A stretch of DNA of 64,000 bases from Branchiostoma floridae (lineage: Eukaryota > Chordata > Leptocardii > Amphioxiformes > Branchiostomatidae), in contig NC_049982.1 in assembly GCF_000003815.2 (NCBI RefSeq), positions 8,994,717 to 9,058,716 of the forward strand, given 5' to 3'. The position numbers and the translations under genes were made by a program. This document shows, one piece after another, positions 10,240 to 59,046 of the stretch. Below the pieces are notes generated by a model. That model made no database searches. It saw only the letters and a list, made by a program, of their open reading frames with translations, and was not told the DNA's origin. Each line of letters starts with the position of its first letter. Within the stretch, counting starts at the first letter, position 1.

Positions 10240-13200
10240 ATGGCGGTCCCTGCAACTTTTATTTTGGGTATAGCCATTCTGTGCACAGGTGTTACATCTG
10301 ACAATGGTAAGTTAAACTTCTGATACAGGGTTTTAGAAGACTGACGTACAAAACTTGTGACGTTGCAGAGTATAATCAGGAATTATATTTTTTCAATTAA
10401 AGTGTTAGTGTTTGTAAATATAACTGAAATAATGCTAAAATTGTACCATACTTGATAACTGCTTTCAATGCGATAAAAACAACATCATTAACATGTGCCA
10501 TCCAGTCTGTGGCGGTGATCATTCCGGTACCGCGTCCGGTACCATCGTCGCCACCCCCGGCCCGGGACCCTGTCAGTGGTCCATAGAGGTACCCCGGGGA
10601 TCCTCTGTACGACTCACGTTCGACATTTTCCACCTTCATGATGGGGACGGTGACGTCATCGTGTACGAACACTGCAATGTTGGAAATCAACTAGGTAAGT
10701 TACTTCAAGAAACATTAAAAGACATTAAGTGCCTTATTGATACGTGATATACGGGGTAAAGACAGTAAAATTCCTCTTTCATCATAAAATTGAGACACTG
10801 AATTATTATTTCATTGCATCTCATGGCCTAGCAACGTCGACGTCGCCAACTTTTGGCATAATGGACTGCCCAGTTTACCAGAACAGTAAATGGTGACATG
10901 CAGCATGAGTGGATTACTTGAAGTTAGATGAATAGGCTATACCACTATGATACCATGCATTCAGAGTGGTGACTTTTGATGCCTATATGTAGAAGTAAGA
11001 AAACGTTGGTCACATGATTAGCTGTCTGTTTGTTTGTTTGTTTGTTTGCTTTGGTTCTGACTGATCAATGCTCTACAATCACTAGGAATATTCAAAGGAC
11101 TCGAGATTCCTCAACCAGTCACTTCTTACAGTAATAAGATGGTGGTAGTCCTGACGTCATCGGGGATCGGTACTGGCACCGGATTCCGTGCTCATTACGA
11201 AGGTGACTGTTTTCATTTTAGTCTTGGGTGTTTAGAACTTGTATAGAATACATATATTACTAATCTTGTTTGAGTGCCCAGAGCGGACGCGACATGAATA
11301 TACATGAAATATACAGAAACTGATCAATGTAACATATGCGATTTTGCTTGTCATCGGCCTGTCCTAATCTTTTTCTGCAGTCCAGCTCTTTGTCGTATTA
11401 GCTTGGTTTCAATTGACAATGAAATATCTACGTATACCTGCCAGCAGACATACGTCACTAGCATGATTATGAACTTAAGATATTTCATCATTCCAACACA
11501 TATTGCGTGAAGGTGAAGATAGCCTAGTGTGGACAAACTCAGTCAGATACAATAATGTTGACATTTATAACAAATCAATACTTTTCAGCTGTCCCTGTTC
11601 CCAGAGTCGTCCCAGGCGAGCTGTACAGCATTCCTGATGACCCGTCGCCTATTGACATTAAACAGGGCTGCCTAACGCATACGGTACGCGCCTACATTAG
11701 CTGCTTATGTTTTGCCGCCTCTGCCCGGATCTTTTTACATTCTGGTCACACAATGGGCAATCCACACAGCTATAAAAGTTCACTACCAACTGATTTAACA
11801 CAATAACAGAGCGGACGCGACATGAATATACATGAAATATAGAGACGACGGGCTAACACGTCATATCTAATTCATCCCGCAAAGCCAGCAATAATGGTGC
11901 TTAGCGCCGTAAGTGAAACTTGAAAGCCCGCTGACCTTGGTCGTCCTTCAAATTCAATATACCACGTATACATACACAAAGATCAGCTTAAACCACAGCT
12001 TGCATTATTGATTACTAATCGATAAAATGATACCCGACTCTATGTACTTACCGAACGATATGCATGTATCTAAATTCCGGACTGATCTAAGAGATTGTTA
12101 TTATCTATTAAACATTTAAGGACATAACCTTAAACTCTTACATTAAATTCAGCTATGGTAACAATGCCTCGCATCATTTTTGATGTTGAAGAAGTTGGGT
12201 GTTAAAGCAATGATGGTGTAAATTGGCTGTGCTAAAATGCTGACACAGGCCGGTGAACGCTGGGCTACAGAAGATAAGAAGCTGCTGAACTGTGTCTGTG
12301 GTGGGGATTACCGTGTATGTTATACCGTACGCTGTCTGATGGGCACCTCTGCAGTTATGGGCAAAGACGGGCATTGGGCCTGCCGCAAATACCAGGTGCA
12401 TGTAAGTTCTTTTGCGCTTATGATAATGTAATACTATTTTCCTGGTCATTTATGGACTAGTTTAAGCCTGGGTGCCATCCTATTAAGTTTATCGGGTCTT
12501 CCATATACTCGCCAGCGTTTGTGAGCGAGTGTGTATGGGAATCCCGGAAAACTAGATCTATAGATAGAACGGCACCCAAGCTACACAGGCTAAATGGAGG
12601 ACTCTCTTGGGCCACCGGTGTGGCACTGCGGGATTCGTTTACTGCGGCACTGTTTTGTTATTTTTGCGATTTTCAAAAATTTTGATATTGTGTAATACGT
12701 AAAAGTATGACTTAGACAACAAAATACACAAAACGGAAGAAAATTCGTTCTTTATCTCGTTGAGTCATCTACGAACTCCGCAATGCCGCACTGGTGCCCC
12801 AAGAGTCCACCTTTAGCCACAACCTATAATACAAAACTGCCAAGTCCTTTGTACTACAAGTGGAACATTGAGTCAGTGATATACAAAATGGAAAGTTCTG
12901 GTAAAAAAGGTTACTCCAGCTCTCTAGTTCCCATTAAAAATCTGATTGTCATGTTCTAAGAATGGGGAAACACCTTGGATATGGTGCTTGCAAATACAAT
13001 GCCTATGGTTTGGCTTACTTTAGGAAAAACAACGTGCAAACATCCCCGGGCAAGCGAAATTTGTCCCGGTACCTCTAATCGTGCATGCTGTCGTTGGATT
13101 GGTCAACTGGTCTCTAGGCAACGCCTTTGAGGAGCCTGACCCTCAGCAGCAGATTCTGGCCGATCTGCAGGCGCTGGACAACAGGCTGGACGATCTGCAC

Positions 13201-16200
13201 GGACAACTGGACTCGCTCCAGACCGGTGAGTGGCTTGACGGCAATGCTGATGGGCCTTGTTTCTTGAACCAATTGCAATGGACCATCTTGTCGTCTAATG
13301 TCTTCATATTTTTCCTTATCATTTGTTGTCTTGATGGTGCTTTATTGGTCTTCATATCTGGTCTCTTACATCCATCTTAACGTTTTCTTTCCTATTGATA
13401 TATCCTCATCCATTGAACCTTCCAGATGGAAGATACTTCACACATCAATGGCAACGATGTATAACCAGCATTTACGTCCTGATTCAGTACGTCCTGACGT
13501 ACGTACTTGATGTCGGGGATTTTCAGTACAATGCGTTTAACGATTAGTGTGTCTACTCCAATAGGTCAGGACTGGGCGGTGGGCGCTACCCTGTACGCTC
13601 ATGCCGAGCAGAGACTGCGGGACACGCTGGACTACCTCACCAATGTCCTTTATGTGGACCCGGCGGGACAGATGCAGCCGAGCGCCGCCGCGCATCAGTG
13701 GGCGGACACGGTCCTATCAACGGGACAGGACGGTCTGTTCTCGGTAAGTTTTCATCTGATCACCAGCCTTTCTTGGTCTTCGGAGTTTCCTTGACGACTG
13801 TGATAATAAGCTTCTACAGTCACCCGACCAAGTAATACCACTCACTGAAACATTTATCTGTAGTCCAAGGAGAGGCCGGGGCAGCTAGGGACAAGTTTAG
13901 ATAGACACTGTTGGCCACACGGGCAACTTTGTTTTGCTTTCACAACATTGCTGTTGCTCATGCATCCTTTGATTGATAGATAAGACCACCTAGAATCTTC
14001 ACTTCGTCAGCTTTTTGTGTGAACCTTGTTCACATCCATACCAGCTATGCTGCTGTCATATCCCGCATTTAACATTGAAAAAAGTTCATCATCAAAGTTA
14101 TTTTTTCTGCTCACAGGTACTGAACAGGTTCCATGACATGGTGGTCGGCTCCTCGGGCCTGTTCGGCACCAAGTCCCTCCTGCTGACGTACGACGCCACG
14201 TTGGTGTCAACCACTCCCAGGGACAGCGTGGCCTACTGGAACAAGGTAATCTTAGTTAAACAAATCCTAGTTAAACAAATAAAGTGAAAGTGAAAGTACA
14301 ACTAAAAGAGCATTCTTACACAGTGATGAGATGAAGGGAGTTATAGACTTGCAATTGGCCACGTTTGGAACCTCGTTCTTCACACTGAAGCAGTGAAACC
14401 TAGATTCAAGGCAAAGTAGAACCAGAATGTGACAGTCAACGAAACGGCGGCTGTTGCAACACCTTGGCTGTTAATAAAGGGCTTTGTGACTTATTCTTAC
14501 AAATCTTGATAAGAGTAACTGAATAAATTTGTTACACGCAATAAAAACAAAATGTATTGATAGCGCACAGCCGTGTCTAGATCTAACTTTGCAAACTGAT
14601 TTGACGATGACATGCACACTCTATTGATACTGACAGGCTTACCCGTTTCTTGATTTTTCCCCAACTCCAGCTGCTGTGGTTCTATGAGTACACCTACTCC
14701 CTCCAGGTGGCCGGGTACTCCGCCTGGTCCACGGCGCTGAACGTGAAGGGAAGGCAGGACGAGACATCAGCCGTGATGGCACGGGCGCGGGGGAAGCTCA
14801 GCGAGCAGGCCTGCTTTCTTGAGATGTACCTTAGGGGTGAGCAGGGAGACAAGTTACGCGTTAAGATAGAACATTGCTACTAAGAAGCTAAGTCTCTGCT
14901 AATGATCTGATTACAAGAGTAGACATTCGTGGAGCTTCTCCTAGTATACTGGGTAGCGATCGTCGAGATCACTTTAGATATGTGTATTGAACAAAAAAGA
15001 ACAGAAAAACGTTCTTTGTTGGTTTTATCTAAATTAGTAAGGCAAATATATTAAACATTTTTATTTTCGTTCCTTCCGTTAGAATGGCCGGCCGGTACTT
15101 ACGGACTACCCATGACCAACACCGGGTGTCCCGTGGCAACGAACGTCACCTGGGAAACCGGGTCTCGTTTCCAGGATACCAGCGGGTACAACGAGTGGTC
15201 AGACGGCCTTCATTTCCCGACAGACACCTTCCACAGTGGCAACATGCGACAGGAGTTCTGTATGAAGGTATGGTTTAACTTCATGCTGTCATGTTGAATG
15301 CCGTATTGGCCATTTGTTTGAGAAGCAGACTGGTACTCACTGGCTCAGTAAATTATTTGCTTGCTTTCTTGTTCCTCTTTACCTAATGCTTCCTTTACAG
15401 TCCTTATTCAATTAAGGGTTAGCTGGTGTCATAATATGCAACTTAAAATAAATTCCCAAATTTAGATGACAAGTCTTTATCCAGAGATGTCTTTCTTCTC
15501 CTAAGACTTCCAGCGAAGGCGGAAGTGGGCAGTGGCCGGCGGGGAACTACTGTATTTTCAAGAGGGGAGCGTGTCCTGACGGTATGCATGCGTTTTGTCA
15601 ACGTATTCATGTTATATTTCCCCTTATCAGCTTTGTATTTGACCTGTGTTTTCATAGTCACAGAAATCAGTTCACACTGGCTAAGCATGTCATGTTTGAC
15701 CAGTGGGTCTACAAATCATAAGTTAAGCATGTAATGCCCCGCAGTCTAGGCGCAGTCACATATTCACACTTATCAATTTCAAGATTTACTTCTTTCTTCT
15801 TCTTCCCTGACACCTCAGGGTTCCTCGAAGGCCACATCACGTGGGACGACCTAGACGTGTTCAATGATAACGAGATTTCGGGCGCACTGCCTGATGGGGT
15901 TTATTACGCCAACACGGAGATCCACTAATTTTAGGGGGGGGACAGCTCCTACAGGTGACGTCATCAATATGCTTTTTCAATTTCTTATGACATTGTAAGT
16001 GTCATTGATTCAGGACGTGATAACCAAAACGAAACATTTCGTTGACATAGATATGGCCAAACATTGATGGTATTAGCGGATGTGTAATCTCCCAACTCGT
16101 AGTTTTAAGAATGTTGCACAAATGTATGGACCATAACATTCGAATGCTTTTCTTATACAGAACACCGATACGCCTTCCAATCCTGGCTCCATTCTACCTG

Positions 16201-16491
16201 TTCCGTCATCAGCAAGGGTGTCAGATGGTAAGCGTAAACAGTGTCAAAGTTTGTTCTGTGTTTTGGTTGTACAAACTGAAAAGTACAGAAAACTCAGAGC
16301 GCAGAGAATTGAAAGTCTCTAACTTCTGCTTCCGTCAGGTCGAAGGCGTCAGCAGTCCTGTGAACGAATGGTTCTGGTTCGACGATGATGATTGGTTCAA
16401 CCATAACGAGCTAGGCGGGGCCCATCCCTATGACGACGGCGACCCGGAGAACCATAGAGTTCACTACTGCTTCTACCAACGGGATGAATAG
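10240..16491 (+). CDS. Secreted CUB / FN1-like / ApeC-domain protein, ApeC interrupted by in-frame stops
   Basis: Exons: 10240-10306, 10506-10694, 11086-11202, 11589-11683, 12249-12401, 13024-13225, 13565-13743, 14117-14245, 14671-14836, 15083-15267, 15506-15581, 15819-15954, 16161-16227, 16339-16491; a 638-codon frame. Domains: signal peptide 1-20; CUB 24-124 (begins CGGDHSGTASG); a fibronectin-type-I-like Cys module about 152-185 (C152, C171, C173, C180, with the C-x-C typical of FN1); a predicted helical, coiled-coil-like region 208-432 of unknown function; and ApeC about 434-634 (WPAGTYGLP, FCMK, WPAGNYC, CPDGF, then PFYLF, GCQ, EWFWFDDDD and HYCFYQ in the last two exons). Amphioxus apextrin-like proteins are reported to bind bacterial peptidoglycan, so secreted immune recognition is a reasonable inference. 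Codon 556 is TAA (15926-15928) and 558 is TAG (15932-15934), exactly where an aromatic residue and a Cys pair are expected; the ApeC frame then resumes unshifted. Either a pseudogenised or truncated allele, or an assembly error. Confidence 0.8.
11279..11841. repeat. 35-bp perfect direct repeats flanking exon 4 of the ApeC gene
   Basis: The same 35 bp, beginning CAGAGCGGACGCGACATGAA, occur at 11279-11313 and 11807-11841, in direct orientation and 528 bp apart. They bracket exon 4 (11589-11683) and its flanking intron DNA. The identity far exceeds that of nearby sequence. Confidence 0.85.
12465..12582. repeat. Short MITE, TIR AGCCTGGGTGCC
   Basis: The ends AGCCTGGGTGCCATCCTATT and the inverse of its right end (AGCTTGGGTGCCGTTCTATC) are near-complementary, giving a 118-bp hairpin-like element in intron 5 of the ApeC gene. 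The termini resemble those of the elements at 26580-26666, 40481-40652 and 43637-43728. Confidence 0.65.
12588..12817. repeat. MITE with about 45-bp terminal inverted repeats
   Basis: The left end GGCTAAATGGAGGACTCTCT and the inverted right end GGCTAAAGGTGGACTCTTGG match, and the match continues through a GGCACTGCGGGATTCG-like stretch. The 230-bp element starts only about 5 bp after the previous MITE. No coding content. Confidence 0.7.
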
Positions 16492-16556
16492 GTTGTAATG
16501 CTGCCTACACATATACGTTTCTGGGTCCGATCTTTCGATCGTCTGCCAAAGGCAGA

Positions 16557-16562
16557 AATAAA
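16557..16562 (+). terminator. Poly(A) signal AATAAA of the ApeC gene
   Basis: A canonical AATAAA lies 66 bp after the final TAG at 16491, just after a small stem (TCTGCCAAAGGCAGA). Its presence shows that the 3' end of the gene is structurally intact despite the stops in the previous exons. Confidence 0.6.
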
Positions 16563-17277
16563 GATTGGCATATGTATTAAGTACTTTGCTTGGAGTGTTG
16601 TATTATTCTATTCAAAATGCTCAACCAATTTTGAGCTATTCGTTGTGCATATATAGACTCTATGCTATAGCATTCATTTTGGAGGGTAGGGGGGCTGTAA
16701 AGTTGTAACTATTGGATATTACATACAAACACGACAGGACATATGCATGCCCATTTTCCACACAATTTTAATGGCAGTGACAACATTTCAACAAACTGAT
16801 TGCTTTGGTTTACACTTTGTCAGACATTTCAGCTCATTAGAAGCAAAAGTTTGCTTGGATAGCCATAAACCTCAAATCCCATACATTTGAATGAGAAAAC
16901 AATATGTATACAGCAAAACACAACTGTTAATAGAAACATGCAAAATGCAGATATATAAAAGACCCTGTGTTGGAATCACACTTATGTTAGATAAGACTAT
17001 TTTTGTGGCTACAAATATATATATATATATATTTTTTGCATGAAGAGAAAGAAAAGAAAATACGCATACTGTCCTGACAGACATACTGAGAGGACCAGTT
17101 CCATAAACAGAAAACATGAATGTCATTCAAGAGATTAAAAAAAGTATTTCAACATTAATTTTTATTTTCCTGGGAATTTCATGAGATAACACAGCATGTA
17201 TTTGTCCAAAATTCCCTTTACTAATGTTCTAACTTTTGATCAGTAGGCCATGGACCCCAGTCTGTGACTAATTAAAA

Positions 17278-17431
17278 TTAATGACAATACTTCATTTTCT
17301 AGATTAACCTACACTTCACTATGACGTCCTTGCTACAACCAAAATCAGGAATAACAATTAATGACAATTCTTCATTTTCTAGATTAACCTACACTTCACT
17401 AAAATGCTACAACCAAAATCAGGAATAACAT
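17278..17431. repeat. Tandem duplication of about 75-80 bp
   Basis: AATGACAATACTTCATTTTC and the following block, with AGATTAACCTACACTTCACT, CTACAACCAAAATCAGGAA and TAACA, is repeated immediately downstream with one small internal deletion and few substitutions. This looks like a recent local tandem duplication. Confidence 0.8.
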
Positions 17432-20961: not shown

Positions 20962-23900
20962 CTACAGACAGGACTCTCTTGTTTCTAGGAGAAAAATCTC
21001 TCCACTGCTTGCATCATAGCTGACTCTTTCTCCAAACTTCTCCCTCAACTGTGCTAATACCTCATGCACAGGTGGTCTCCTCCCAGCCTCCCCTGCCTGG
21101 ATGAGTGCATTCTCCTCAAGGTGCTGGCCACCCAGACAGGGGAATAGGACTCTCCTGAGGGACGCCTTGTCCGGCGCGCCTAACTGTTTGTCTGTGTCCG
21201 CTGTGCAGCACTGGTTTGCCCTACAGGTTCTCTGGCAGTTCAATAGACAATGGCAACTGCTCCTATAGTCACCCTAAAACAAAAGATATGAATCTAATTC
21301 ACACATATATTCATCCTGATCAAAATCTTATATCTAAATAACTACACATTATTTATCAATCTATTTACATGTATCAAAATAGGCAATATAATATCTAGAT
21401 AAACACACACTTTTTATCAATACATTTATCAATATTAGTAATCTAGATAAACATACACTATTAGAATCAAAACAGTGAAAAAAAAAATCAGTAGTTGCCA
21501 GTTTGAAAAATTGATTGCCCTTTTATTTTGTTTGTTTCTTTTCAAGCTAACAACTGCACAGTTACATCATGTAGACATTGAGGACACAAAATACACCTTC
21601 TGCACCCACCTGTGAAAACTCGGGCTGAATGGTTGTGGAGTGAATTCCCTCGTTACGAAGCAGGCTCTTGATCTCGCGACAGAGCTGCAGGTAGACCTGG
21701 TAGTTTAGCGGAGACAGGAACACCACATGGAGCGTCGCAACAATCTTCTCTCCCGTCAGCGGCCACACGTGGAGCTCATGGATGTTCACAATACCTGGGA
21801 TCTGGATAAGGAAAAACACACTTCTGTGAGATATTGAGAGTATACTACATGTCAAAGACTTGACTGCTGTAGCATCTAGTAATCTGTATCTGTATCTGTA
21901 TATATATAGCCGGTATAACTGTAGCCTGATTTAATCGCGCTTCTCAGGCCCGTCGTACATTGCCGCGCCGATCCGCGGGGAGGAGTCTACAAGCTCCGGA
22001 TAGCGGAGTTTGCGTTACACAGACTAGTATAACTGCTGTTCGGCGTAACACACCAGCTTCGCAGGCACGCGGCGCGGCAGTAGCTGGTTATATTACACCG
22101 AACGACTCGTTACCCCTAACTTTTGCACATCATTTAGTAAACCTTTATGTGTGCTTTGTAAATGCTTTTATATTATACTTCTAGTTACTCTTGGAAGAAG
22201 AGTCACCTCCTGACGGAGTACAAAATGTATTGTAGTTGGGATTGTAGTGCTGTTCGCAGTGTTATCTCACCATCCCTTTCCTGCATTTGAACGTGAAGGA
22301 AAAGCCCAAAAAACAAAATCATAATACAAAGTAGTTGATTAGAAGCGGGTCTGTATGGGAATGCATGGATATAGAAAAGGATTATTGCTGGAAAGACTGA
22401 GGTGACTTAGCCATAAGTTCAAAAGGCTGCATTGTTTCCTGAAAAATACCCGCTTCTTCAGTGGAATGCCCCTTCAACAATAGATTCCAACAAGTTGGAT
22501 AGCCATGGCTGTATTTTTGCTATACAGTTGAATAAATCAACGAAAAAATCCTAAGATGCACTGAATTTCTGAAATGGCATGATGGCTTGTAATAACCTTC
22601 TTGCCCACTAGGTGGCGCTGCTGTGCTGCACAACAACCACTAACCAGTCTCACCTGCTGCAGCCTGGTCCTGAGTTTCTTCATTCTGACACTGGGTGGCA
22701 CCGACTGCAGGAGGATGGATGCTGACTGTTTTACTGTAAAATGCAAAATGTATGACAATATTTCTATGGTTTACCAATACGATATTACATCATATTTTCT
22801 CTAGTTATATCTAATTGCAAATAAAAGAATGGCACACTGTTCCTTCTGTGATGGAACATATGTATCGGTCAAAGTATCATTTTAAACTAATTGTGTACGG
22901 TAATATGACATACTGGTATATGTGTACAACACCTACAATGGCAATATCATTAATCAGATATGAGTGGTTACAGGTACTGGTACTGAACTGCATTCAGATC
23001 CAGGCACATGTAACTCTTACTCTTAGCATTTACAGTATATCTTTCGAAAACAATCTCTCTCTTTATACTTGCATCCACCAGAGGCTAATTTTATATACAC
23101 CTGACAAGATCTGATGTATGAGCTAAATAAGGCAAACTTACATTTGTACTGGATGTGAAAAGAGGCACAAGTAAGCAGATATGAATTAATTGGTCATGAC
23201 ACAACGAAGCTTTCATTATCCTATGAATAAGACGTGACAAGTATATGGATATCAAAATAACTTACACAGAGGCGCAGTTGTAGTAATGATGATGACCACC
23301 ATTAGGATGCTGCAAAAATGGGGGGAAAATTAGGAATACTTCAAAGTATAAGTCTATAATTACAGATAAGCTATGAAATCATTCTCATACATTTTACACT
23401 TCATTCTGCTTCACGTTCTAGTTTTATTTCAGATCAGTCTTCATGAAATTATCATACGTGAGTGGAAAGTACTGCCCAAAAGTAAAAGATAGGATATAGG
23501 AGAATTCTTTTACACATCTAATTAGTACCCACTTTGTTAAAGTTTTGATGTCTCTCTGACACGTTCCTCAGAGCTTCTGACTGGAGTTTTCCTTCTCGCC
23601 ACTATATTTACTGTTAGCAAGTGAGTACTAATTGGTTGTATAAAAGAATTCTCCTATAATATGTATTCTACCAGCCTGATTGAATTATTTTAGAAACTAA
23701 AAAGTAAATTAAAGATGTTTTTATCTACCTGAGGACAGGGTCACAGTACTTGATCCAGTCTCCCTCTAAATATATGATGATGAGTGCATTGATGAGGAGG
23801 ATGAGGGAGGACAGGGCGTCGCCCAGCACATGCAGGAACACGCCCCGCAGGTTCATCTGTACGGCATCTATTATAGCTGCAAAATGTAAACACACAGGGC

Positions 23901-26900
23901 AGCTGTTAAATCTGAGGCACCTAAAAAATAAGATTGCGTACCTGAGAAAACTGCGATTTACTAATCTGATGATGAATCAATCCAACCATCATTGATTGCA
24001 GTAATAGCTTAAATGTTGCAGGTAAAAGGTATTTTTTCTCATTTAATGGTTAAGATTTCATTAAAGTTACATGTGTCTAGTACAAGTTGGGAAGACAACC
24101 TGTAAAGGTGAATTATATCACCTGTTTTGTTTTCCTCTCTATTGTATTTAGACACTGTGGTAACTTCTAAAGACAAAGAAACAAGATTCACCAGTGTCCT
24201 GTGGTCTGCAGACAGAGCTGTCCATGTCTGAGTCAATACTGGAGTGGGACTCTCGTCTGGTCAGCTGGACCCCACTGTCTCTTCTGTGGATGCAATTTAC
24301 AGGATAATTATCATATAGCCAGACAACGTCGACCAATCAGAAGGCTCCATTTCCCCCATAACCCAGGTCATTAACACCCCATATACTACCTGTATTCAGG
24401 CTATAGGTCTCGTTCTCAGGGTATTGTCAACCATTAGTGATTAGAGGAATCCTTACAACGCTGGGAACGAGAGCCACAAAATGGCATGCAGTTCAGAGAA
24501 CAAAACGTGGAATAGAGCACAAACAGTGATGTTATGGCAGGTGCAGGGAGTGGTGGTAAGATTTTATCGCCCGGCCACACAGGTAAGAAGGTAGGGAGAG
24601 CAAGAATCCACCCCGTCCAGCAAGAAAAAAGGGCCACAACAAACAAAAACTGAATCTCATCAATGGGCTAATATTATTCTGTAATGTAATGCGCTCTTCA
24701 GGGCTGAGTCGTTACAGCTAGATATATGACAATGTCTAACACTAATTCACCTTTATTCGTTGGGTAACCTATATCCGTTGCTTTTAAATGCAGGGTACGT
24801 AGGCACATCAAGTCGACAGGTGATAGTTTTAAACTGCAATATCCTGAAAATATTGCAATTGGAAACTAACGTCCGTCGACGTGATATCCCCAAATACCCT
24901 GTTTTTAAAAACAACGGATATAGGTAACTCAACGGATAAAGGTGAACTAGCGTTATATGATAATAACGTTAATGACCCGCTTTCCTTCGGAGTATACAGA
25001 CTTGGTTGCTTCACTCAGTACTATAGGAACCGGCTATGAATTATGGCACTGTATACACCTCATGGCGGGTCATTAACTCTATAAGTCATTAAGTCTATAC
25101 TAAACCTCTTATGAGTTGTCAAGGAAAATAACATTTGGTGCCTTCAACTTTGTTTTACATTCTAAATGCATGAATATCTCACATCCACTCCTGCTGATTG
25201 GGAAGACACATTTTTTTTACCTGATGTCAGATCGGTCCACATCATATCCAGAGTCTGTGTCATATACCGGCTCTCTGGAGGAGGAGGAGGGGGCAGCTGT
25301 GTCCTGTTCTGTTGAGCTGTCTGCTGTGTGGTGGTGACCATGTTGGCCCACCATGAGGCCTGCCATTAGAATATAACAAAATCCAAGCATTCAGGTTTCC
25401 AAACTTTCCATCATAATGATGTATCTTTAACTTAGTGTCTGAAATAGGCAATTAATAAAATTTGGCGAAAGTTATATACCTCTAGCAACGAAGATAAAAC
25501 TTTTTCCTAAACTTAAGGTCCAACATGGCCTTGGTCTGGATACCTTAGCATGATGATGATTATGGCAATTGATAACCTAAAAGTAAAACTCTGGAATAGA
25601 CCCAAGCTCCGGCGCACTGAGGGCACTGCCTGGCAATGTGCATGATTTGTAATATGCCGGTTTCACTCCTCTGGCAGTTTTTGATATTATAGGCTACCGT
25701 TAAGGATCTGCTTGGAGATTACAGGATTGGGTAAAAATGAGGGTTAGGCAGAGTTAGAAGGTAGACCTATAATCACAATCATTGAGCTACTCTCATATTT
25801 ACCTAAGTCACGCACATTACCGAAAGATTGTGCTCTCGCAAGACCAGCTTTTGTAATGGAACCAGAGTTACGAAAGGGGTCTATCAGAGTTTCTACTCCA
25901 TTAAGGCAGGAAGCAAACAACTTCTATCGTGACGAATTGATAAAGCATGCCCAACTCACCCCTGAGGAGACCCATCCCAAAGAGGTAGAAAGCCAGTGAA
26001 ACTCCCCCGATGATGACCATTAGAAGTGGACTCTCCACAAGTTCAGGCATGATGAGCCGCTTGAAGGACTCCACCAGGATGGAGAAACACATGGCCAGTA
26101 GGAAGATACAGTTCACCAACCCTCCCAGCACCTCCGCTCGCACCCAGCCGAACGTGTTGATGTGTACCACTCTCTTCTTGGAGAACTGCAGTATCAACGT
26201 CCAACTTTCAGAAATGTCCAACAAAACTTTGAAATTCATAAATGTCCCACATATTATAAAGGCACACAACCTTATTTTACCTCTCTAGCAACATTTCGAC
26301 CGACTGTCTGCTGTCTTAATTATGGTGAAGTAAACTTGTCCTGTTGTGTGCTGTGATGTAACACAATAGGACAATACATGTACTTCACCCTTACCTGATG
26401 AAGACAACAGTCTGACAGTCCGTTGGAATGTTGTAACATTGATTGCATACCTGAGAAAACTGTGTTGGACATTGATTCACAAATCTGATGAAACTTTTTA
26501 CGGGTTTCAGATATGTCATAGTCATTTTTGATACCATGCCTTTTGGATGATTTTCATGTTATGTAGGAATTACTGATTGGCCTGGTTTCCGAATCTAATG
26601 TAGCTATGAGTCTCTGTGTTCTCAAACAGACTTGGCACCTAACTCCTAAGATTTGGATACCAGGCTAATTACTGATTGCAGGAACTGTCTGATATTTTTC
26701 ACTGTCTATGCCCTTTTCATGAATTCCACCTGCTACAAAAGTAATGAACCCTACTTTCTAATGTCCAGCACAGATAATGTCAGTAAAAGATTTATAACCA
26801 TAAAGTGTAATCAATCGACAAAGAATTTGCTGCATCAGACAGCACCTTAAAAATAGTGTGCAATCTCATTGCTCAATCATGCAAACTAATAATTATGGGT

Positions 26901-27655
26901 CATCACTCTGCCTTTTGGCCTCCGGCAGAACAACAAAATTTTTTTCGTCCAATGTTGTGAAAATACCTAACTGTGGTCTACAATGTAAACAAAGAAAAGG
27001 TGAACAAAGTACAGAATAAACTGCCGTAAAATTGTGTGTTTCTAAGAATCATTCCAGCAAAACCTGGAAATGTATTTGGACAACATACATACTTAGGGCT
27101 AAAAACTTTTTTATAGGTGCACTAGCGCATGTAATTAAAAAATCTAGGTTTGTATGTGCACAGAATCATTTGAGTACACAACATGAAATGGAAGAACTAA
27201 AATTCTAACAGACCTTCAACATTCTAAACAAGTAACCATTAATCAATCAATCAATGATTGATGCAACAAAGATTTTTCAAATACATGTATCAAGAATATG
27301 CTGTATATTGGCATACAATTAGTCTTTAAAGTACATGAACATTTCATGGACATGTTGTAAAGTACACTGATGGCCATCACCTAGTCAAGATTTGGTGCAC
27401 ACCTCCTGAATTTTGGGTGCTGGACAGTGGATCTGCACCCAGTGTTTCACACCTTAACACTTTTCAGGTACAACTCACCCTCATGGCAGACAGGCCTACT
27501 ATCAGGGACACCATGTCTGACAGACAATGGAAGGAGTCTGCAACTAGTGCCATGGAGTTAGTCACATAACCAACAATTATCTCCACCACGAAGAAGAGTC
27601 CGGTGAGGACGATCAGCGTCATAAGACGGCAGGTTTTCCCATCGTAGCGTCCCAT
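20962..27655 (-). CDS. ZnT1-type zinc exporter (SLC30A family), paralogue A
   Basis: Coding exons, 5' to 3' on minus: 27655-27479, 26185-25960, 25359-25221, 24283-24192, 23876-23729, 23309-23266, 22733-22654, 21801-21610, 21273-20962; 469 aa. Cation diffusion facilitators export Zn2+ in exchange for protons; ZnT1 acts at the plasma membrane. Seen here: six membrane segments, H43-xxx-D47 in TM2 and H227-xxx-D231 in TM5 forming the HDHD transport site (H43 points to zinc, whereas ZnT10-type proteins have Asn there), a cytoplasmic loop about 135-212 with HGHHH, and a C-terminal domain about 303-366 with NIHELHVW and GIHSTTIQPEF. The Cys-rich tail (C-x-C-x3-C, CC) ends in SCL, a possible PDZ ligand. 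A candidate acceptor, inverse of CTGGAA, puts the start of a 5' UTR exon at about 27707. Paralogue B at 44792-49527 has the same intron positions and phases. Confidence 0.93.
21918..22022. repeat. Dispersed repeat, TAGCCTGATTTAATC family
   Basis: A block of about 90-105 bp opening TAGCCTGATTTAATC and closing TTTGTGTTACACAGACT-like. Other copies lie at about 28134-28227, 38693-38790 and 38882-38990, the last with a diverged end. No protein or RNA gene recognised; probably a small mobile-element derivative. Confidence 0.6.
23495..23658. repeat. MITE with about 37-bp TIR in intron 5 of zinc transporter A
   Basis: The left end TATAGGAGAATTCTTTTACA and the inverted right end TATAGGAGAATTCTTTTATA match, and the match continues to AATTAGTAC. 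The element is 164 bp, non-coding and intronic; paralogue B lacks it in the corresponding intron. Confidence 0.75.
24399..24475. repeat. Tiny inverted-repeat element
   Basis: GGCTATAGGTCTCGTTCTCAG at the left and CTGGGAACGAGAGCC at the right are inverted partners enclosing about 40 bp. It lies in intron 3 of zinc transporter A. Confidence 0.4.
24739..24953. repeat. MITE with about 60-bp TIR, CTAGTTCACCTTTATCCGTT family
   Basis: The left CACTAATTCACCTTTATTCG and the inverted right CGCTAGTTCACCTTTATCCG continue as near-perfect inverted arms through ACCTATATCCGTTG to CAGGGTA. The element is about 215 bp, in intron 3 of zinc transporter A. Confidence 0.8.
26287..26436. repeat. MITE with ACATTTCGACCGACTGTC-like TIR
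   Basis: The left GCAACATTTCGACCGACTGT and the right end (inverse GTTACAACATTCCAACGGAC) form imperfect inverted arms of about 40 bp. It lies in intron 1 of zinc transporter A. No coding content. Confidence 0.6.
26580..26666. mobile_element. 87-bp MITE with 12-bp flanking direct repeat
   Basis: The termini GCCTGGTTTCCGAATCT and the inverse AGCCTGGTATCCAAATCT enclose a tiny element. AATTACTGATTG immediately precedes it (26568-26579) and immediately follows it (26667-26678), which is a strong signature of transposition; the true target duplication may be 9-12 bp because the ends are slightly ambiguous. The termini resemble the TAGCCTGG element at 40481. Confidence 0.8.
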
Positions 27656-28133
27656 TGTTCCTCAGTCAAGCCCCACAGGTATGGTAGTTGTCAGAGGGTG
27701 GTGTACCCTGGAACATGGACAACACAATTGTCATGACATCTTGACTTATTGCCAGAACATATGTTTCAAATGTCTAGCCGTTAATGATCTGCAAAGAGGC
27801 TAGGCAGTACAGAAGATGGATATCTTTTTTACTTTAGCCCAAAGGAAACCACCATAACTATATCAAAACTATATTTTATTTTGTACACAATCAAATATCC
27901 GTATATATACTAGTACTATTTCAGGGCCATGCATTATCGGATTACAGTATCCTGATACGGGCCATTCACTATCAAATATACAGTATCCTGGCATGCATAT
28001 CAGATATCAGATTATGAAAAGGTGTTGCATTGTCACATACATAACAATAATTACAACACCTTAAAGGCTGTCATTTCAAAGATTGTAATGCATCCCCTCA
28101 AATATTCTATGATTAACGTTACCCATCTATATC

Positions 28134-42668: not shown

Positions 42669-43310
42669 CTAAGCGGAAGATTCCGTCTTACTGCCATTGT
42701 CATATCCATGCAACTGAACCTTATGTTGTACACCCTTAAACCTGTTCCTTGTGCTCTCAGCTACACCAAAATGAGCAGACTTGGCATTTCTTAAGCCCAT
42801 TGCATCTTCCTTTATAGATTCCTCAAGGTGGTCTACTGATTTTACATGTCTGATGCCATGCATTTGCCCTGGCCTGATATTCTTGGGCGATACAATATGT
42901 TTGTATTTCAAGCTCTCTGATGATGGAGACCCCCCTGTGTTGGAGCACTTGGTATCTCCAAAGTCACTGTTAGTAGAGATGGTGTCATGTAAGTCAGGAG
43001 AGGACTGCACCATTTCCAGCATTGAGGTGGGAGGGGACAGGTTAGTTTGCTGCATCCCCAAGCAAGGAAGGGAGGAAACGACAGGCACCCCGTCAGCTTC
43101 AGTGGTGGAGTCTGCCACCACTGCTGAATTGTTAGAATTGTTAGTCACCACAGAAAACCTGCTATCGCTATACCCACTCAGTGAGATACTTGCAGCAGAA
43201 GATTGGTCCATGCAGTTAGAGGACCTGGACTGCTGGTCAGAGCTCACAGCATCAGAGGAAGGGTTAGTAGAGTCTTGGGGAAGGCTGGCTTGGTCAGGAG
43301 ATATGTGCTG
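42669..43310 (-). CDS. Candidate Ser/Asn-rich terminal exon, possibly an alternative tail of zinc transporter B
   Basis: An open frame of about 213 codons on minus follows a consensus acceptor (TTTTCCCCAG, exon from 43310) and ends at TAG, 42669-42671. The product is hydrophilic and rich in Ser, Asn and Asp (for example DQQSRSS, SGYSDSRFS, SSPDLHDT) with a basic C-terminal part (KSVDHLEESIKED, NRFKGVQHKVQ). I recognise no family. No other exons were found between it and zinc transporter B, 1.5 kb upstream on the same strand. Its phase-0 start is compatible with splicing from exon 7 or exon 8 of that gene in place of the Cys-rich last exon. The plus-strand frame at 42781-43359 is the antisense shadow. 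It could instead be a single exon of an unseen gene, or chance. Confidence 0.35.
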   Translation of the reverse strand, partial: QHISPDQASLPQDSTNPSSDAVSSDQQSRSSNCMDQSSAASISLSGYSDSRFSVVTNNSNNSAVVADSTTEADGVPVVSSLPCLGMQQTNLSPPTSMLEMVQSSPDLHDTISTNSDFGDTKCSNTGGSPSSESLKYKHIVSPKNIRPGQMHGIRHVKSVDHLEESIKEDAMGLRNAKSAHFGVAESTRNRFKGVQHKVQLHGYDNGSKTESSA

Positions 43311-43636
43311 CTGGGGAAAATATGTGGGATGTAAAGAAAAAGTTAGTAAGGAAATCTGAAATCTACCTGAAATATGGTATTTCATCCTTTGAAATTAGGT
43401 ATCATACAATAAAAATGAGCACTATTCTAACCGTATACTGTATAACAGTATTGGATTCTGATTATTTTTTTTCAATTACAATGAAAGTATGACTAAATAG
43501 TGATTTTCATAATCAATGACAAAATTTCCAAGAGAAGTCAAGGGTATCCTACCTTAAGAACTGCTTTGTCTATTATTCCATTGGAGATGATTGGAAGAGG
43601 CAATGAGAAAAATCGTGCCATGCCATGTAAGGTTAG

Positions 43637-44791: not shown

Positions 44792-47700
44792 CTACAGAGT
44801 TGACTCTTTTGTCTCTAGGAGAAAAATCTCTCCACTGTTCTCATCATAGCTGACTCTTTCCCCAAACTTCTCCCTCAAGAATGCAAGTACCTCGTTCAGC
44901 GATGGTCTCCTCCCAGCATCCCCTGGCTGGATGAGTGCATCATCCTCAGGGTGACCCAGACAGGGGAACAGGACTCTCCTGAGGGACGCCTTGTCCGGCG
45001 CACCTAACTGTTTGTCTGTGTCTGTTGTGCAGCACTGGTTTGGACTACAGGTTCTGTTACAGTCCAGGAGACAATGGCAACTGCTCCCAACACCCTGAAA
45101 CAAAACATAAAGTGCCTACATTAAGACTTTACCGCAAGCTGATTCAATAAGATCATATTGTATTATATATCTACTAATATAAGCAATCAAATATTTAAAT
45201 CAACATACACTATTTACCAATTAATCTATCAAGATACATTTCCTATAATCTACATAAACATACACTGTGAGAGTCAAAACTAAAAAATTCTTAGTTGGCA
45301 TAGTGTCAGCTTGAAAATTGATTGCCCTTTTATCTACATATTTTGTTTGTTCCTTTTGAAGCTCATGTAGCTAGAAGCTCACCTGTGAGAACTCAGGCTG
45401 AATGGTTGTGGAGTGAATCCCTTCATCATGAAACAGGTCCTTGATCTCACGGCAGATCTCCAGGTAGTTTAGCGGGGACAGGAACACCACGTGGAGCGTG
45501 GCCACAATCTTCTCACCGGTCAGCGGCCACACGTGTAACTCATGGATGCTCACAATACCAACAATCTGAATGAAAAAAACAAACTTAAGATTCGAGGCAC
45601 TGAAAGTATGTACAATAGACTTAATTACAGTATGATCTAATAAGTCAAACATGTTAAAATGTAAATGACTTGTATGTTATTCTTGTGTTGTGTGTAGTCA
45701 CCAGGTCTGGCATTTTTGTACTAGTATACAATATCATTAGACTTTAGGTAATAAGGTAGCCATGGCTACATCATCTTATACACCCAAACAAATAAATCAA
45801 TCATACAGTGATCCTCAGATGCAGGGAATTTCTTAGATGGCAATACTAGCTTGTAATTTGCTTCCTTCCTGTTAGGTGGCGATTCTGTGCATAACAACCA
45901 CTAACCAGTCTCACCTGCTGTAGCTTGGTTCTGAGTTTCTTCATTCTGACACTGGGTGGCACCGACTGCAGGAGGATGGACCCTGACTGTCTCACTGCAA
46001 AATGTGAAATGTATGATAACTGGTGTAACAATACCTTTGGTCGCGATCAACATGACTTTATATCATGTATTTTGAATTCTAATTGTGTCCAATTCCAAAT
46101 AAACAAATACCCCTCTGTTCCTTCAGTGATGGAATATGATACTTATGTATTAGTCAAAGCATTATGTTTCAAAGTATATGTGTAATAGCCCTAGAATGTC
46201 CTAAATGGCAATATCAGGAACATATGAGTGGTCGAAGCTGTCCTTGGTGCTGAACTGCACTCATATCCAGGCACATGTAACTTTATGGCTTTAGACAACA
46301 TTATAGTCTTTCAAAAACAATCTCTCTCAATCCTCCCTTCATACTTGCATCCACCAGAGGTTAATTTTGTATACACCCAACAAGATTGGATGTACATTAG
46401 CTGAATATGGTAAATTTGCACTTGTATTGGAAGTGACGAGAGGCACAACTTTTCATTATCCTATGAATAAGACATGATGTGGATATCAAAATAACTTACA
46501 CAGAGGCACAGTTGTAGCGATGATGATGACCACCATTAGGATGCTGCAAAAACAGAAAAAAATTAGGAATAAAGTAATCAAAAGTATAAGTCTATAGACA
46601 GAAAAGCTTTGAAATCATTTTTATACATTTTACACCTCATTCTGCTTCATGTGCTGGTTTTATTTAATTCCACTCTTCATGTAACATATTACAAAAAAAA
46701 AACAGTTAAAGATTCTTATATCTACCTGAGGACAGGGTCACAGTACTTGGTCCAGTCTCCCTGCACATACATGATGATTAGTGCATTCACAACAATGATG
46801 AGGGAGGACAGGGCGTCGCCCAGCACATGCAGGAACACACCCCGCAGGTTCATCTGTGTGGCATCTGCTATAGCTGCAGAATGTAAGCACACAGGGCAGC
46901 TGTCAATTCAGAGGCACCTGATACAACATACCAAAACTACCTGTGAATAGTAACCCAATCATTCATTGCAGTAGTTGCCTAAACGTTGGAGGTAAAAAAG
47001 GTATTTTTTCTCCCCAAAGATTTTACAAAAAGCTATTTGCTTATAAAAAACAGCTCAAAGTAAACGCTCAAGAGTCAAGCTAATTTGATACCGGGAGGAC
47101 AGCCTGTGGAGGTGAACTTTATCACCTTTTTTTTCCCGGCCATTGTATTCAATGGTTAAATTCAAATACAATTTAAACAAGTTTCACCATTGTCCTGTGG
47201 TCTGCAAGCAGAGTTGCCCATGTCTGAGTTAATACTGGAGTGGGACCCATGTCTGGCCAACTGGGCATCACTGTCTCTTCTGTGGACACGGTCCAAAGAA
47301 ACAATTCATTATCAAGACATTCGACCATGGTTATCATACAGGATTGAATAATTGAATGTCTCAACGCCTGTGACCCAGTCAAGTACTAGTACTGTAGTAG
47401 TAGTATCAAGTCAATGGAACTTCCTATGTTGCAACAAGCAATTGACCCCTTGAACCTTGCTTTACAAATTGTACTGATGTCCAACATTTCCTCCTCACAG
47501 GGAAGTTTACCTGTTATCAGGGTCCACGGTTTGGTCCACGTCATATCCAGAGTCAGTCTCAGACACCAGCTCTCTTGAGGGTACATTATCTTTACCGGTC
47601 TGTGCAGCCGTGTCCTGTCCTGTTGGGCTGTCTGCAGTGTGGAGGTGACCATGTTTGCCCACCATAAGGCCTGCCAGTAAACCGTTACAAATGCAAACAT

Positions 47701-49527
47701 TCAGATTTCCTTCTTCTTCGTCTTGCTACATATGGCCAACTTGCATGTAGCTATAGTGTCTGATATAGACATTTCCTAGAAAATTAGAATCCTAGCATGA
47801 AAAGGGCTTATTTTTCCTCAACATGAGCATAGAGTGGAATTGTTCTGGGTAATCAAGCCAACAACAAAAACATCATCACCATCATAATGATGAAAATGAT
47901 GATGAGGATGCATGTCCAACTCACCCCTGAGAAGACCCATCCCAAAGAGGTAGAAGGCCAGTGAAACTCCCCCGATGATGACCATGAGAAGTGGACTCTC
48001 CACAAGTTCAGGCATGATGAGCCGCTTGAAGGACTCGACCAGGATGGAGAAGCACAGGGCCAGCAGGAAGATACAGTTCACCAACCCTCCCAGCACTTCT
48101 GCTCGCACCCAGCCAAACGTGTTCAGGTGCACCACTCTCTTCTTGGAGAACTGGAACGTCAACATTTCAACTTCAAAACTTCTCAAAAAATATCTCAATA
48201 AAACCTGATAAATTCTTAGGAGTTGCTGCATATTCTTTTATTCATAATTGCACAGACAATGTATCCGGCGCATCACACAACTTAGGTCATTGCCTCACAT
48301 ACAAGTTGCATATCAAGCCTGTTTGCAGTCATTTGCAGTTCTTTGTGGTTTTTAGGCATACAGCCTTTTCATGAATTCCACCTGGTAAGAAAGTAAGAAA
48401 CATGAACAGTGGCAAAACAATTGGAGCACTTAAACCATGCTTGGGTTGGAATAGTATGCCAAAGGGTGACCAAGACCAGAAAAGCTGGAGATCTTTTGTT
48501 GTTGCTCTACATGCCAGTAGCCATAGGCAGTGTTTAGTAAGAAAGTCTTGCATCCATAGCTTTTTTTCTGTCCAGTACCAATACGATGTCAGTAAAAAGA
48601 TTTATAACCTTCTGTTGTAATTAATCAACAGAGAAGCAGGATATAGCACCTTAGAAATAGTGTGTAATCAACAAAGATCAATAATTATGGGTCATCAGAC
48701 CACCAATTTGGCCTCAGGCAATAGAAATAGGCAAAACAACACCAAACTTTGACATGGTCAAATGTTGTGAAAACACCTGATTTTTGTTTACATTTGGTTA
48801 CATAAGCAATAGTAAAGGTGAACAAACTACAGGGCAAATTCCTGAAACATTGTAGTTTAACACTACACATGTAGTCCTACAAAATACAATTAAAGGAAAA
48901 TTTAACTCAAAAGTCATTAGACCAAAACCGCTTTTCACAGCTATTTGGGACACATACATATGTATAGCATACTAAAATGGGCTAAACATTCTTTTCATTT
49001 GGAACAGGTGCGCTGGTGCGCGCAACTTAAAAATCTCCTAGGTGCACAGAAAAAACTTTTTAGTGCGCAATATAAAATAGATGAACCCAAATTCTATAGC
49101 TTTGAATTTCAAAATTCAAAACACGACATTTAATGCAACCAAGGTTCCCTTATTTTTCAAGTATCAAGACTATACCTTACAGTTACACTTGTGTCATCAT
49201 ACATTACATAGACATGTAAGGTATACTCAGTCTGATGACCATCACTTACAGCCAAAACTGGGTGTACAACTCCATTTTTTTCTGGTTGCACAAAGTACAC
49301 AATTATGCATCTTGTCTTGAGCACTGATAAACATCAGGTATACAACTCACCCTCATGGCAGACAGGCCTACTATCAGGGACACCATGTCTGACAGACAGT
49401 GGAAAGAGTCTGCGACTAGTGCCATGGAATTAGTCACGTAACCAACTGTAATCTCCACCACGAAGAAGAGTCCGGTAAGGACGATCAGCGTCATAAGACG
49501 GCAGGTTTTCCCATTGTAGCGTCCCAT
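44792..49527 (-). CDS. ZnT1-type zinc exporter (SLC30A family), paralogue B
   Basis: Coding exons on minus: 49527-49351, 48150-47925, 47670-47511, 47279-47188, 46873-46726, 46543-46500, 45994-45915, 45565-45383, 45094-44792; 470 aa. Same nine-exon plan and phases as paralogue A; only exons 3, 8 and 9 differ in length (160, 183 and 303 against 139, 192 and 312). The transport-site residues are present: H43-xxx-D47 in TM2 and H234-xxx-D238 in TM5, so Zn2+/H+ exchange is expected. The loop begins GLMVGKHGHLH and has fewer His than in A. The C-terminal domain spans about 310-370 (SIHELHVW, GIHSTTIQPEF), and the Cys-rich tail (C-x-C-x3-C-x3-C, CC) ends in ESTL, a class I PDZ-ligand pattern. The start is at the ATG of MGRYNG; the frame is open upstream but offers no earlier ATG. 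Several kilobases of 5' and 3' flank were duplicated together with the gene. Confidence 0.93.
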
Positions 49528-51100
49528 TGTTCTTACAGCCAAGCCCCACAGGTATGGTAGTTATTTAAGGGGGTGGCTGGCGTAACCTGGAACATTGACA
49601 ATACAATTGTTATGACATCAGCATGTTGCTATAGCAACTGTCCATCAAAGGTGACTGATGGCTGAATTATGATGGCTGAATTCTGGAAAAGAATGGATGA
49701 AATGAAAGTCAACAAGAATTTTTAAGATCGGACTACTTTGAAATTCTATTACTGTATTCTTAGTTTTACCTTAACACTAATCTTATAAAGTTACATCCTG
49801 TTGGAGCTCAATCATTTATCTCCAGATTACAAGATTAATGGTACTTTAGGGGAAATGATAATTCCACACCTTCTTCCTTTTGATAACTTATGAGGCTGCC
49901 AGGTATATGATTCACCTACCATAATGTGTTTCGTCTACAAACCCCCAGGGTATGCAAATAAACATCCAGTTAATTTTTAACTACTGTGTAACGTTACAGG
50001 CTGTAAAATGAGGTCAGGTCCTGTGGGCTGAGTTGTTGTTGAAATATTTTTAAATTTTTTTCATTAAAATGGCTTGGAGAAGAATTACCAAATGACCAAA
50101 ACATAGACTTTGATCATTATCCAAATGATTCGTACTAAGTACCTGAGCTTAAATAATAATGCACTATCAGGTTACAAAAGGGTAAATGCACATATGTATA
50201 CTGAACAATTACAACAGCTGGTATTCAAAGATTTAATGCATGCCCTCCCATATTTCATGGTGCTGTGTTGATTGACCCCCTCCGTCCTCTATGTCCTAAA
50301 TCATGTCCCCTACTGACTATTCCACAAGTCGCAACAAGCCCTGCCAATAGCCTGTTGAGCCTGTAATAGCTTGGTGAGTTGTTCTGGTCCAGTGAATTCA
50401 GACAATGTTGACACACTACCTAGCCTCCCACTCCGTTCTGAACACGCCACTGACACCAAGCTCCTTCTTGCTGACACAGATGTGGTTTGTGCAAATTATG
50501 TCTCATGAAGAGTTGGCAGACACGCAGACATGTCTGATTGATGGGATTACATATCATATCGCTTGCATGTGATCAGGTTTAATACAGTAGTGCGGCAAAC
50601 AATCTCCTGGCAGATTTATCGGTGGCATACTAGTAGTAAGCCCTTAACTAGGCTTAAGCCAAGCTTGCTTGGAGTGTCATCAGCCTGCACGTCTGTTCCC
50701 TTTCCCCCTCTCCCCGCCCGAACCTACCTAAGTTGCCGGTTTACATGTCTGTCCGTGTCAGCTCTGTGGGAAGACACAGGAGGGGTCACGGGGCTGACTG
50801 ACCTGCAGCACGTACGTAGGGTCAGCCATCCGCGTCCTTCGGGTGAAAGATCCAGGATATCCACATACCGGATGTGACGCAACGTCTTTAATACCAAGGG
50901 GCGGGGTATTTAAGGTTGGGAACAACGTTACGTAACTTGATATTTGCTACCCCCCCTGGTACCGTACGATGGCCCGCGTTCTGTGTAAACTTGCCAAGCA
51001 GTTTGAAGGTATAAAGGAAACTGCGGGAAGACATGAAGAAAACAACACGAAATAAAAATTTTGAAAGCACCAAGTTATATGTATAAAACAGCCGGACTGC
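49528..51100 (-). promoter_or_regulatory. 5' flank of zinc transporter B
   Basis: Immediately upstream, sequence near 49530-49590 matches paralogue A, including the acceptor-like inverse of CTGGAAC near 49586. Blocks near 50530-50600 (CATATCATATCGCTTGCATG, TGATCAGGTTTAATACAG) and 50730-50850 (ACCTAAGTTGCCGGTTTACA, GGGGCTGACTGACC) are diverged members of the 5'-flank unit found five times upstream of paralogue A. A promoter or noncoding first exon here is inferred, not seen. Confidence 0.4.
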
Positions 51101-54249: not shown

Positions 54250-55350
54250 CTCTCTCACTCAGTCCATAGCCCAAAGCTGTTGACAAGAGACAAAATAAGA
54301 CTTTATTAAAAATTTCAAAATAAGACTGCAGTTACAAGCTGTAGTACAGTGATGTTAACAAAATTAACACCAAATAGAAGCAATAGCTCACAGCAAGTAC
54401 GTTATAACGTCCTTGCTCACAGATATCATCATCTACCTTTACAGGCATGTAGTTTGTATGGCACACATCTCTCACAGCAAATAGTAATTTGCCCATGCCC
54501 CCCTCCCCATTTGCAAGAAAATTAAGGCAACATCACTCTCTGAGGTATCATTTGTCAAAATATAGATCTTTAACAATTTCTGAAGTGCTAGGAGTTGGTT
54601 CACATACCTAAAGTGTTTGTTTGTGGGAAGAGGGCGGCAAAATCTGACCAAAACGTGTTCCACACAGTCGAGCCCACGCTTGCTCTCTCTCTCTCTCTCC
54701 TGGGAGTAGTACCGAAATGCATGCCGGGAATTTAAGGCATATACGATTGCGCAATCCGGCATATGCCATCTTGAAAAGAGGGTGTGCTTCAGGTTAGTGT
54801 TGGCGTAACGTAAAATCTGAAGAAATCAACGAAAAAGTGTAATACTCATAAACGTTTAAGTATTTAATTGATTGAAAATTCATGATTTTTTTTAGCAAAT
54901 ATCAACGCTAATTTCTAACTTAAAGAGTAAAAATGGACCGTTCCAGGGTCACTGACCCAACAAATAAAGGAAAATGGAGGACAAGTAAACCTGGATTTTC
55001 GGTATTTTCCGTCGTGTTTTTGTGGTCCAAACTGCTCTAAGACTTAACCCTCACATATACGGATCTTTCAGCTTTGTTCTTATGGAGCCCCATGTGACCT
55101 ACATGGCGTAAAATGGACTTTTTGTGGAGAAAACGCCGCGAGTTTAGGACGTTCGCCTTGGCTCCGTAACGCTACGAAGTTCGTGTGCAAAGACTTTTGC
55201 ACAAATCACACTGCAAAGGGACGAGTGCAAACCGTCCTTTCATCATTCACGGAGGAAAATTCCAGACCTTTTCAGGAACAGGCTCTCAAGAGCAGCAGAA
55301 TTTATCCATTTTTTCGGCAAGGAAGGAGATTTTCGCTAATTTTAGGTAAG
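54250..55350. promoter_or_regulatory. Probable bidirectional promoter region, POLR2L (-) and zinc transporter C (+)
   Basis: The region contains a CT microsatellite (about 54680-54698) and a GC-richer segment around 55100-55340. On plus, that segment ends in TTTTAG|GTAAGTG at about 55346, a consensus donor that would suit a noncoding first exon of the gene whose next acceptor (TGCTTGCAG) ends at 59020. One sequence matching the metal-response core (GAGTGCA, inverse TGCACTC) lies at 55223-55229, but a 7-bp match can be chance. No TATA box was identified. Confidence 0.4.
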
Positions 55351-58300: not shown

Positions 58301-59020
58301 ACTGTGAATGACCTCTGTCACTGAAGAAGAGTTTCCATGGTTTGGATGCTCTTGTTTAACCGTGGAACCATCCAAACAATGGAATCTCTTCACTGAAAGT
58401 TAAAGTGCCATGCATTTTAGAAATGTAAAAGTAGTGCAGTCAATGTACAACAGGAACTGCGTACTACCTCTCAAACTTTGGGTAATCCTACAACAGATTC
58501 ACATAGTTTACTCAACATAATCTTTCCAGTCAAATGTTAATATCCGTTTCTGCTTTATCCTGTGTACAGTTTTCAGTAGAAGTTTTGAAGCATTATGAGC
58601 TTAATTATTTATATATGTTCACAAATACCCTCTAAACAACAAACACAGCCCTTTTATTCTAAAGAATGTGTGCCTGCAGGGTATAAACAAAAGTTCATGT
58701 GTACAGACATTAGACATGATTGATGCACATGTGTATTGATCCTGTTCGAACTGCAACTTATGTCATGTTTACAACATACTACTAGTATACTGAGTACTTC
58801 TGTATCAAAGTCACACCACTGTGCCCATCAATAGTGGTCCAATACTAGGTAATTTTTTCCAATTGCCCCAAGTACTGTATTAAGAATCATGTCCATTGTG
58901 GCCACCTGTCGTACTACGGTAGTCACAAATCTCCCTAAGTCCCTTGCAATTGTTGAGTGCCGTCATGTAACCTATACACAAGTTTGGCTGTATTCTCACG
59001 TAGTACATGTATGCTTGCAG
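55351..59020. other. Probable first intron of zinc transporter C
   Basis: AT-rich DNA with no recognised exon. It holds a small hairpin at 58318-58398 (CACTGAAGAAGAGTTTCCAT inverted as ATGGAATCTCTTCACTGAAA). Open frames such as 57779-58069 lack any recognisable domain. Confidence 0.4.
58318..58398. repeat. About 80-bp imperfect hairpin
   Basis: The left TCACTGAAGAAGAGTTTCCA with TTTGGATG pairs with the right CATCCAAACAATGGAATCTC plus TTCACTGAAA. MITE-like, non-coding. Confidence 0.7.
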
Positions 59021-59046
59021 CACAGTGAATCCAGGACTACTCTACA

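Follow-up and report, generated by a model that had tools for sequence, protein, structure and literature searches.

Two in-frame stop codons interrupt the ApeC domain of an otherwise open lectin gene of Branchiostoma floridae in the 64-kb stretch of DNA analysed here (the window). Matches to published primers identify the gene as B. floridae ACP5 (bfACP5), or as the locus of a very close relative. As the source of the double stop, a local consensus error in this assembly has a chance slightly better than even, and this reading is favoured over a real null allele, to which we assign a substantial chance that falls short of even. We infer a technical origin of the stops, in which a stretch at 15926-15941, no longer than about 15 bases and beside a run of eight G, would have been miscalled, while the animal's real gene would be open there.

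Gene model and identity

In the splice model, the coding sequence runs on the forward strand from a start ATG at 10240 to a terminal TAG at 16489-16491, and comprises 14 exons with 1914 nt, or 637 codons and a stop. All 13 introns have GT-AG boundaries and measure between 111 and 622 nt. Codons 556 and 558 are the only stops within the frame, the other 635 codons being open, and outside the lesion the gene contains no further stop or frame break. The earlier note had reported a normal terminal stop and an AATAAA signal, and both are present (see table).

On sequence agreement, the gene is bfACP5 or the locus of a very close relative, because the six bfACP5 primers listed in Table 1 of PMC8361754 fit the spliced model with two mismatches over 120 nt (F, 0 of 22; R, 1 of 19; qF, 0 of 18; qR, 0 of 18; 32aF, 1 of 22; 32aR, 0 of 21). 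Five control primers from that table, two of them for ACP3 and the others for ACP1, ACP2 and gapdh, are each off by 6-9 bases when placed on the spliced model and by 5-7 at their best site anywhere in the window. Since primers 32aF and qF cross the exon 1/2 and 12/13 junctions, respectively, the splice model is supported at both. Primers qF, qR and 32aR match exactly within the part of the gene from 15942 to 16491; 15926-15941 is covered by none of the six, and qF begins at 15947. The two primer mismatches lie at 10515, which is coding (Gly in the window, Asp in the primer), and at 16494 in the 3′ UTR, and are consistent with ordinary polymorphism.

The published bfACP5, ApeC-containing protein 5 of B. 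floridae and a secreted lectin of the gut (cDNA MZ004942, JGI gene 95439), was cloned intact and is described as a protein of 636 aa with a signal peptide, a CUB domain, a middle region, and an ApeC domain containing eight conserved cysteines and altered DXED motifs (PMC8361754). The same source reports that the recombinant protein, Asp21-Glu636, binds and aggregates bacteria and yeast, and that the mRNA occurs mainly in the intestine and hepatic cecum, the animals being from a Tampa stock. The window copy shares the order of signal peptide, CUB, middle region, and C-terminal ApeC; the signal peptide was recognised by eye and with the help of the published Asp21, and Pfam places CUB at codons 24-123 (40.9 bits) and ApeC at codons 434-633. 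It also has Asp at residue 21, where the mature protein starts, Glu as the last residue, and, by our own placement, three degenerate DXED positions (DDLD at 529, DDDD at 602 and DDGD at 619). The published protein differs in having 636 aa, an open frame and all eight ApeC cysteines, as against 637 codon positions, two stops and six cysteines in the window copy. By position, the part of the middle region that adjoins ApeC would correspond to the TRAF6-binding region of bfACP3.

Table. Coordinates of the bfACP5 gene model and its parts within the window.
Feature	Position	Strand	Basis
bfACP5 gene, coding span	10240..16491	+	splice model; Pfam CUB and ApeC; six published primers
Exon 1: start ATG and signal peptide	10240..10306	+	by eye; Asp21 as mature start per PMC8361754
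Exons 2-3: CUB domain, codons 24-123	10506..11202	+	Pfam CUB, 40.9 bits
Exons 4-9: middle region	11589..14836	+	splice model
Exons 10, 11 and most of 12: ApeC profile columns 1-129	15083..15925	+	Pfam, 137 bits, piece alone
Lesion: TAA, TTT, TAG and adjoining run of eight G	15926..15941	+	sequence
Remainder of exon 12, exons 13-14: ApeC columns 136-208, frame unchanged, terminal stop	15942..16491	+	Pfam, 57.5 bits, piece alone
AATAAA polyadenylation signal	16557..16562	+	sequence

A tblastn search of the window with the gene model (E up to 1) returned the gene's own exons and flanks and no second ApeC copy; one weak match (25.9%) joined two parts of the gene's own ApeC domain. At Rfam gathering scores, no structured RNA was found between 8000 and 18500. 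Introns 3 and 4 share a 39-bp direct repeat (11279-11317 and 11807-11845, 97% identical), and a tandem duplication of about 80 bp (87% identical) lies downstream of the gene at 17270-17430.

The window also contains three copies of what we take to be SLC30A1-like zinc transporter genes, at 20965-27661 (-), 44795-49530 (-) and 59044-61580 (+). The Pfam domain Cation_efflux was detected in three of the four exon ORFs scanned from these copies, all three in the minus-strand copies; the fourth ORF, 59004-59267, is read in a frame other than the matching one. Corresponding stretches of exon in the copies share 52-97% identity at the protein level. Between two of the transporter copies, a 241-codon open frame at 42672-43394 (-) gave no hit in Pfam at E values up to 0.01.

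The double stop and the ApeC domain

Exon 12 (15819-15954, 136 nt) is entered in phase 1 and reads ...YYANTEIH, then TAA, TTT, TAG, then GGG GGG GAC AGC TCC TAC AG, followed by a GT donor. The TAA occupies 15926-15928 (codon 556) and the TAG 15932-15934 (codon 558), and a run of eight G extends from 15934 to 15941. The earlier note had given this reading of the exon with exact coordinates, and its figures of codon 556 for the first stop and 82 codons lost, with no frame shift, agree with the splice model. The lesion is confined to about 15 nt; the two stops are certain from the sequence, and any further codon changes there would follow from comparison with the family. The 64-kb window has no second run of eight G or C, and this one is its longest. 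A first-order Markov model predicts 0.47 such runs per window, and 38 of 100 simulated windows contained one or more, so that the presence of such a run is by itself unremarkable.

With both internal stops written as X, the full-length protein contains a domain of about 200 aa at codons 434-633 that matches the Pfam ApeC profile (PF16977) at 197.6 bits, against a cut-off of 26.5, over columns 1-208 of 208. The parts on either side of the stops, the downstream one beginning at Ser 562, each match the profile when scanned alone (see table). Codons 556-561 therefore occupy the place of profile columns 130-135, and on balance nothing is inserted or deleted with respect to the ApeC family. Because all the remaining 635 codons can be read through and both flanking pieces match ApeC separately, this reading is not a product of chance.

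The window copy departs from the family in two respects: the frame through the domain is interrupted at codons 556 and 558, and it has six cysteines (448, 492, 510, 517, 585 and 631) where eight are conserved. The two absent cysteines would be expected within the lesion. A Cys pair at these codons had been predicted in the earlier note, and it gains indirect support from the eight cysteines of the family and of bfACP5, the six found elsewhere in the window copy, and the gap in the profile match at this place.

Intron 12, inspected by eye in the three forward frames for the missing piece of the exon, contained nothing ApeC-like. A search of the window for a donor of the odd 13-base string revealed none that was convincing; the one other site within two mismatches, at 55336, is about what we estimate chance to produce. 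Among prokaryotes, the upstream piece as query gave 24 pattern matches to possible ApeC relatives, none of them confirmed by tblastn. A comparison with solved structures returned one match, a defensin at E = 2, which we judged to be chance.

Consensus error, null allele and other explanations

A loss fixed in the species is ruled out because an intact bfACP5 cDNA has been published; the gene lives on in the species, and the lesion belongs to this sequence, which fits both an error and a rare allele. The earlier note had proposed a loss-of-function allele, a truncated natural variant or a base-calling error. The intact cDNA removes the first in the form of a species-wide loss, error and rare allele both fit, and a functional truncation is disfavoured. 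Elsewhere the gene shows no stop or frame break, which speaks for an error and against old decay. An error is also favoured by how densely the changes seem to be packed, with two stops and, presumably, the loss of two cysteines in three neighbouring codons as against two differences among 120 primer bases, and by the position of the lesion beside a run of eight G that has no equal among the G or C runs of the window. The B. floridae reference is described as resting on approximately tenfold Sanger shotgun data from a single diploid animal whose haplotypes were assembled apart (PMC7269912). Split over two haplotypes this would leave, by our reckoning, about fivefold coverage for each, so thin spots would be expected if the window came from that assembly.

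The alternative to which we give somewhat less than an even chance is a recent, real null allele of bfACP5 on the sequenced haplotype, other haplotypes being intact. A small complex mutation would have created it, and its mRNA would be degraded or would yield a protein of 555 residues in which ApeC is incomplete. Homopolymer errors usually insert or delete bases; here the frame and the number of codons are preserved exactly across the lesion, which speaks against an error and for an allele. The window contains no N, which also argues against an error, and an N-free stretch of 64 kb is no less compatible with long contigs than with the 52-kb L50 of the Sanger assembly (PMC7269912); a long-read origin of the window would make an error less likely. 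Hand-picked coding exons elsewhere in the window are mostly open, in favour of an allele and against an error: when exons of the three SLC30A1-like copies were compared in eight such cases, seven were open, and the eighth has one stop in a poorly conserved leading part that is probably intron. A further pair outside this selection, 24151-24336 and 47174-47341, shows three stops where its leading part is badly aligned.

Variation in the animal and its immune genes also lends weight to a null allele. Heterozygosity in amphioxus is given as 3.2-4.2% (PMC12500494), presence-absence variation is reported for five of 13 annotated B. floridae ApeC genes in a study that includes 41 B. floridae samples (PMC12373286), and haplotype-specific pseudogenes are on record for the VCBPs of B. 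floridae (PMC2632668). The lancelet ApeC variation resembles the present case in that an ApeC gene is lost in some individuals of the same species, but those genes were scored as absent, whereas here a complete gene carries a lesion of a few codons known from this sequence alone. The VCBP pseudogenes are likewise disabled copies of immune genes on particular haplotypes, but they belong to another family, and are rearranged or partial copies, which were studied with BAC and PAC clones. In the literature on premature stops and loss-of-function variants in amphioxus immune genes, ACP5 is not named in the titles or passages seen. Against a null allele, such alleles usually arise from one base change or a small indel, whereas here two stops, presumably together with two cysteines, are affected within three codons, and the window offers no source for the odd string.

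Here 93 nt separate the first stop from the last exon junction, and under the 50-55 nt rule nonsense-mediated decay is expected, which supports a null allele and counts against a working truncated variant. Such a variant, which we regard as improbable, would have 555 residues with the signal peptide, CUB and TRAF6-binding region and no lectin domain, and would signal without binding microbes. In bfACP3 the TRAF6-binding region precedes ApeC and is conserved in ACP5, and it would thus survive the truncation; however, TRAF6 binding was mapped in ACP3 (PMC8361754) and is carried to ACP5 by analogy. Four of the eight ApeC cysteines would be left (448, 492, 510 and 517), the other four being the two presumed at the lesion and those at 585 and 631 downstream, and the partial ApeC would probably misfold. 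A separation-of-function allele segregating in B. floridae, in which the peptidoglycan-binding ApeC is lost and CUB and the TRAF6-binding region are kept as an NF-kappaB brake without a lectin, seems to us slightly less probable again.

We give the lowest chance of all, a very small one, to alternative splicing that skips the stops, either as a 36-nt in-frame GT-AG intron (15899-15934) or from donors at 15820, 15841 or 15859 to exon 13. These GT-AG pairs and a few others in exon 12 do exist and keep the frame, but 36 nt is far under the 111 nt of the gene's shortest intron and below the usual size range of animal spliceosomes. Every listed option also removes part of ApeC, and the published qF primer was built on the ordinary exon 12/13 junction. 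Stop-codon readthrough is very unlikely, given two stops one codon apart.

Meaning for bfACP5 and the ApeC family

The gene has been described before. Its double stop most probably reflects a local error, or failing that a private or rare null allele, and so is probably not a new kind of thing; neither outcome would surprise a specialist. The result is a caution nonetheless. Where this sequence is taken as the reference, bfACP5 could be miscalled a pseudogene or a gene with a broken ApeC domain, despite its intact, microbe-binding product. If instead the stops are real, the allele should be null, since a large part of ApeC is lost and nonsense-mediated decay is expected, and a lectin gene would have been knocked out naturally, on a small scale, in a family for which variation between individuals is on record.
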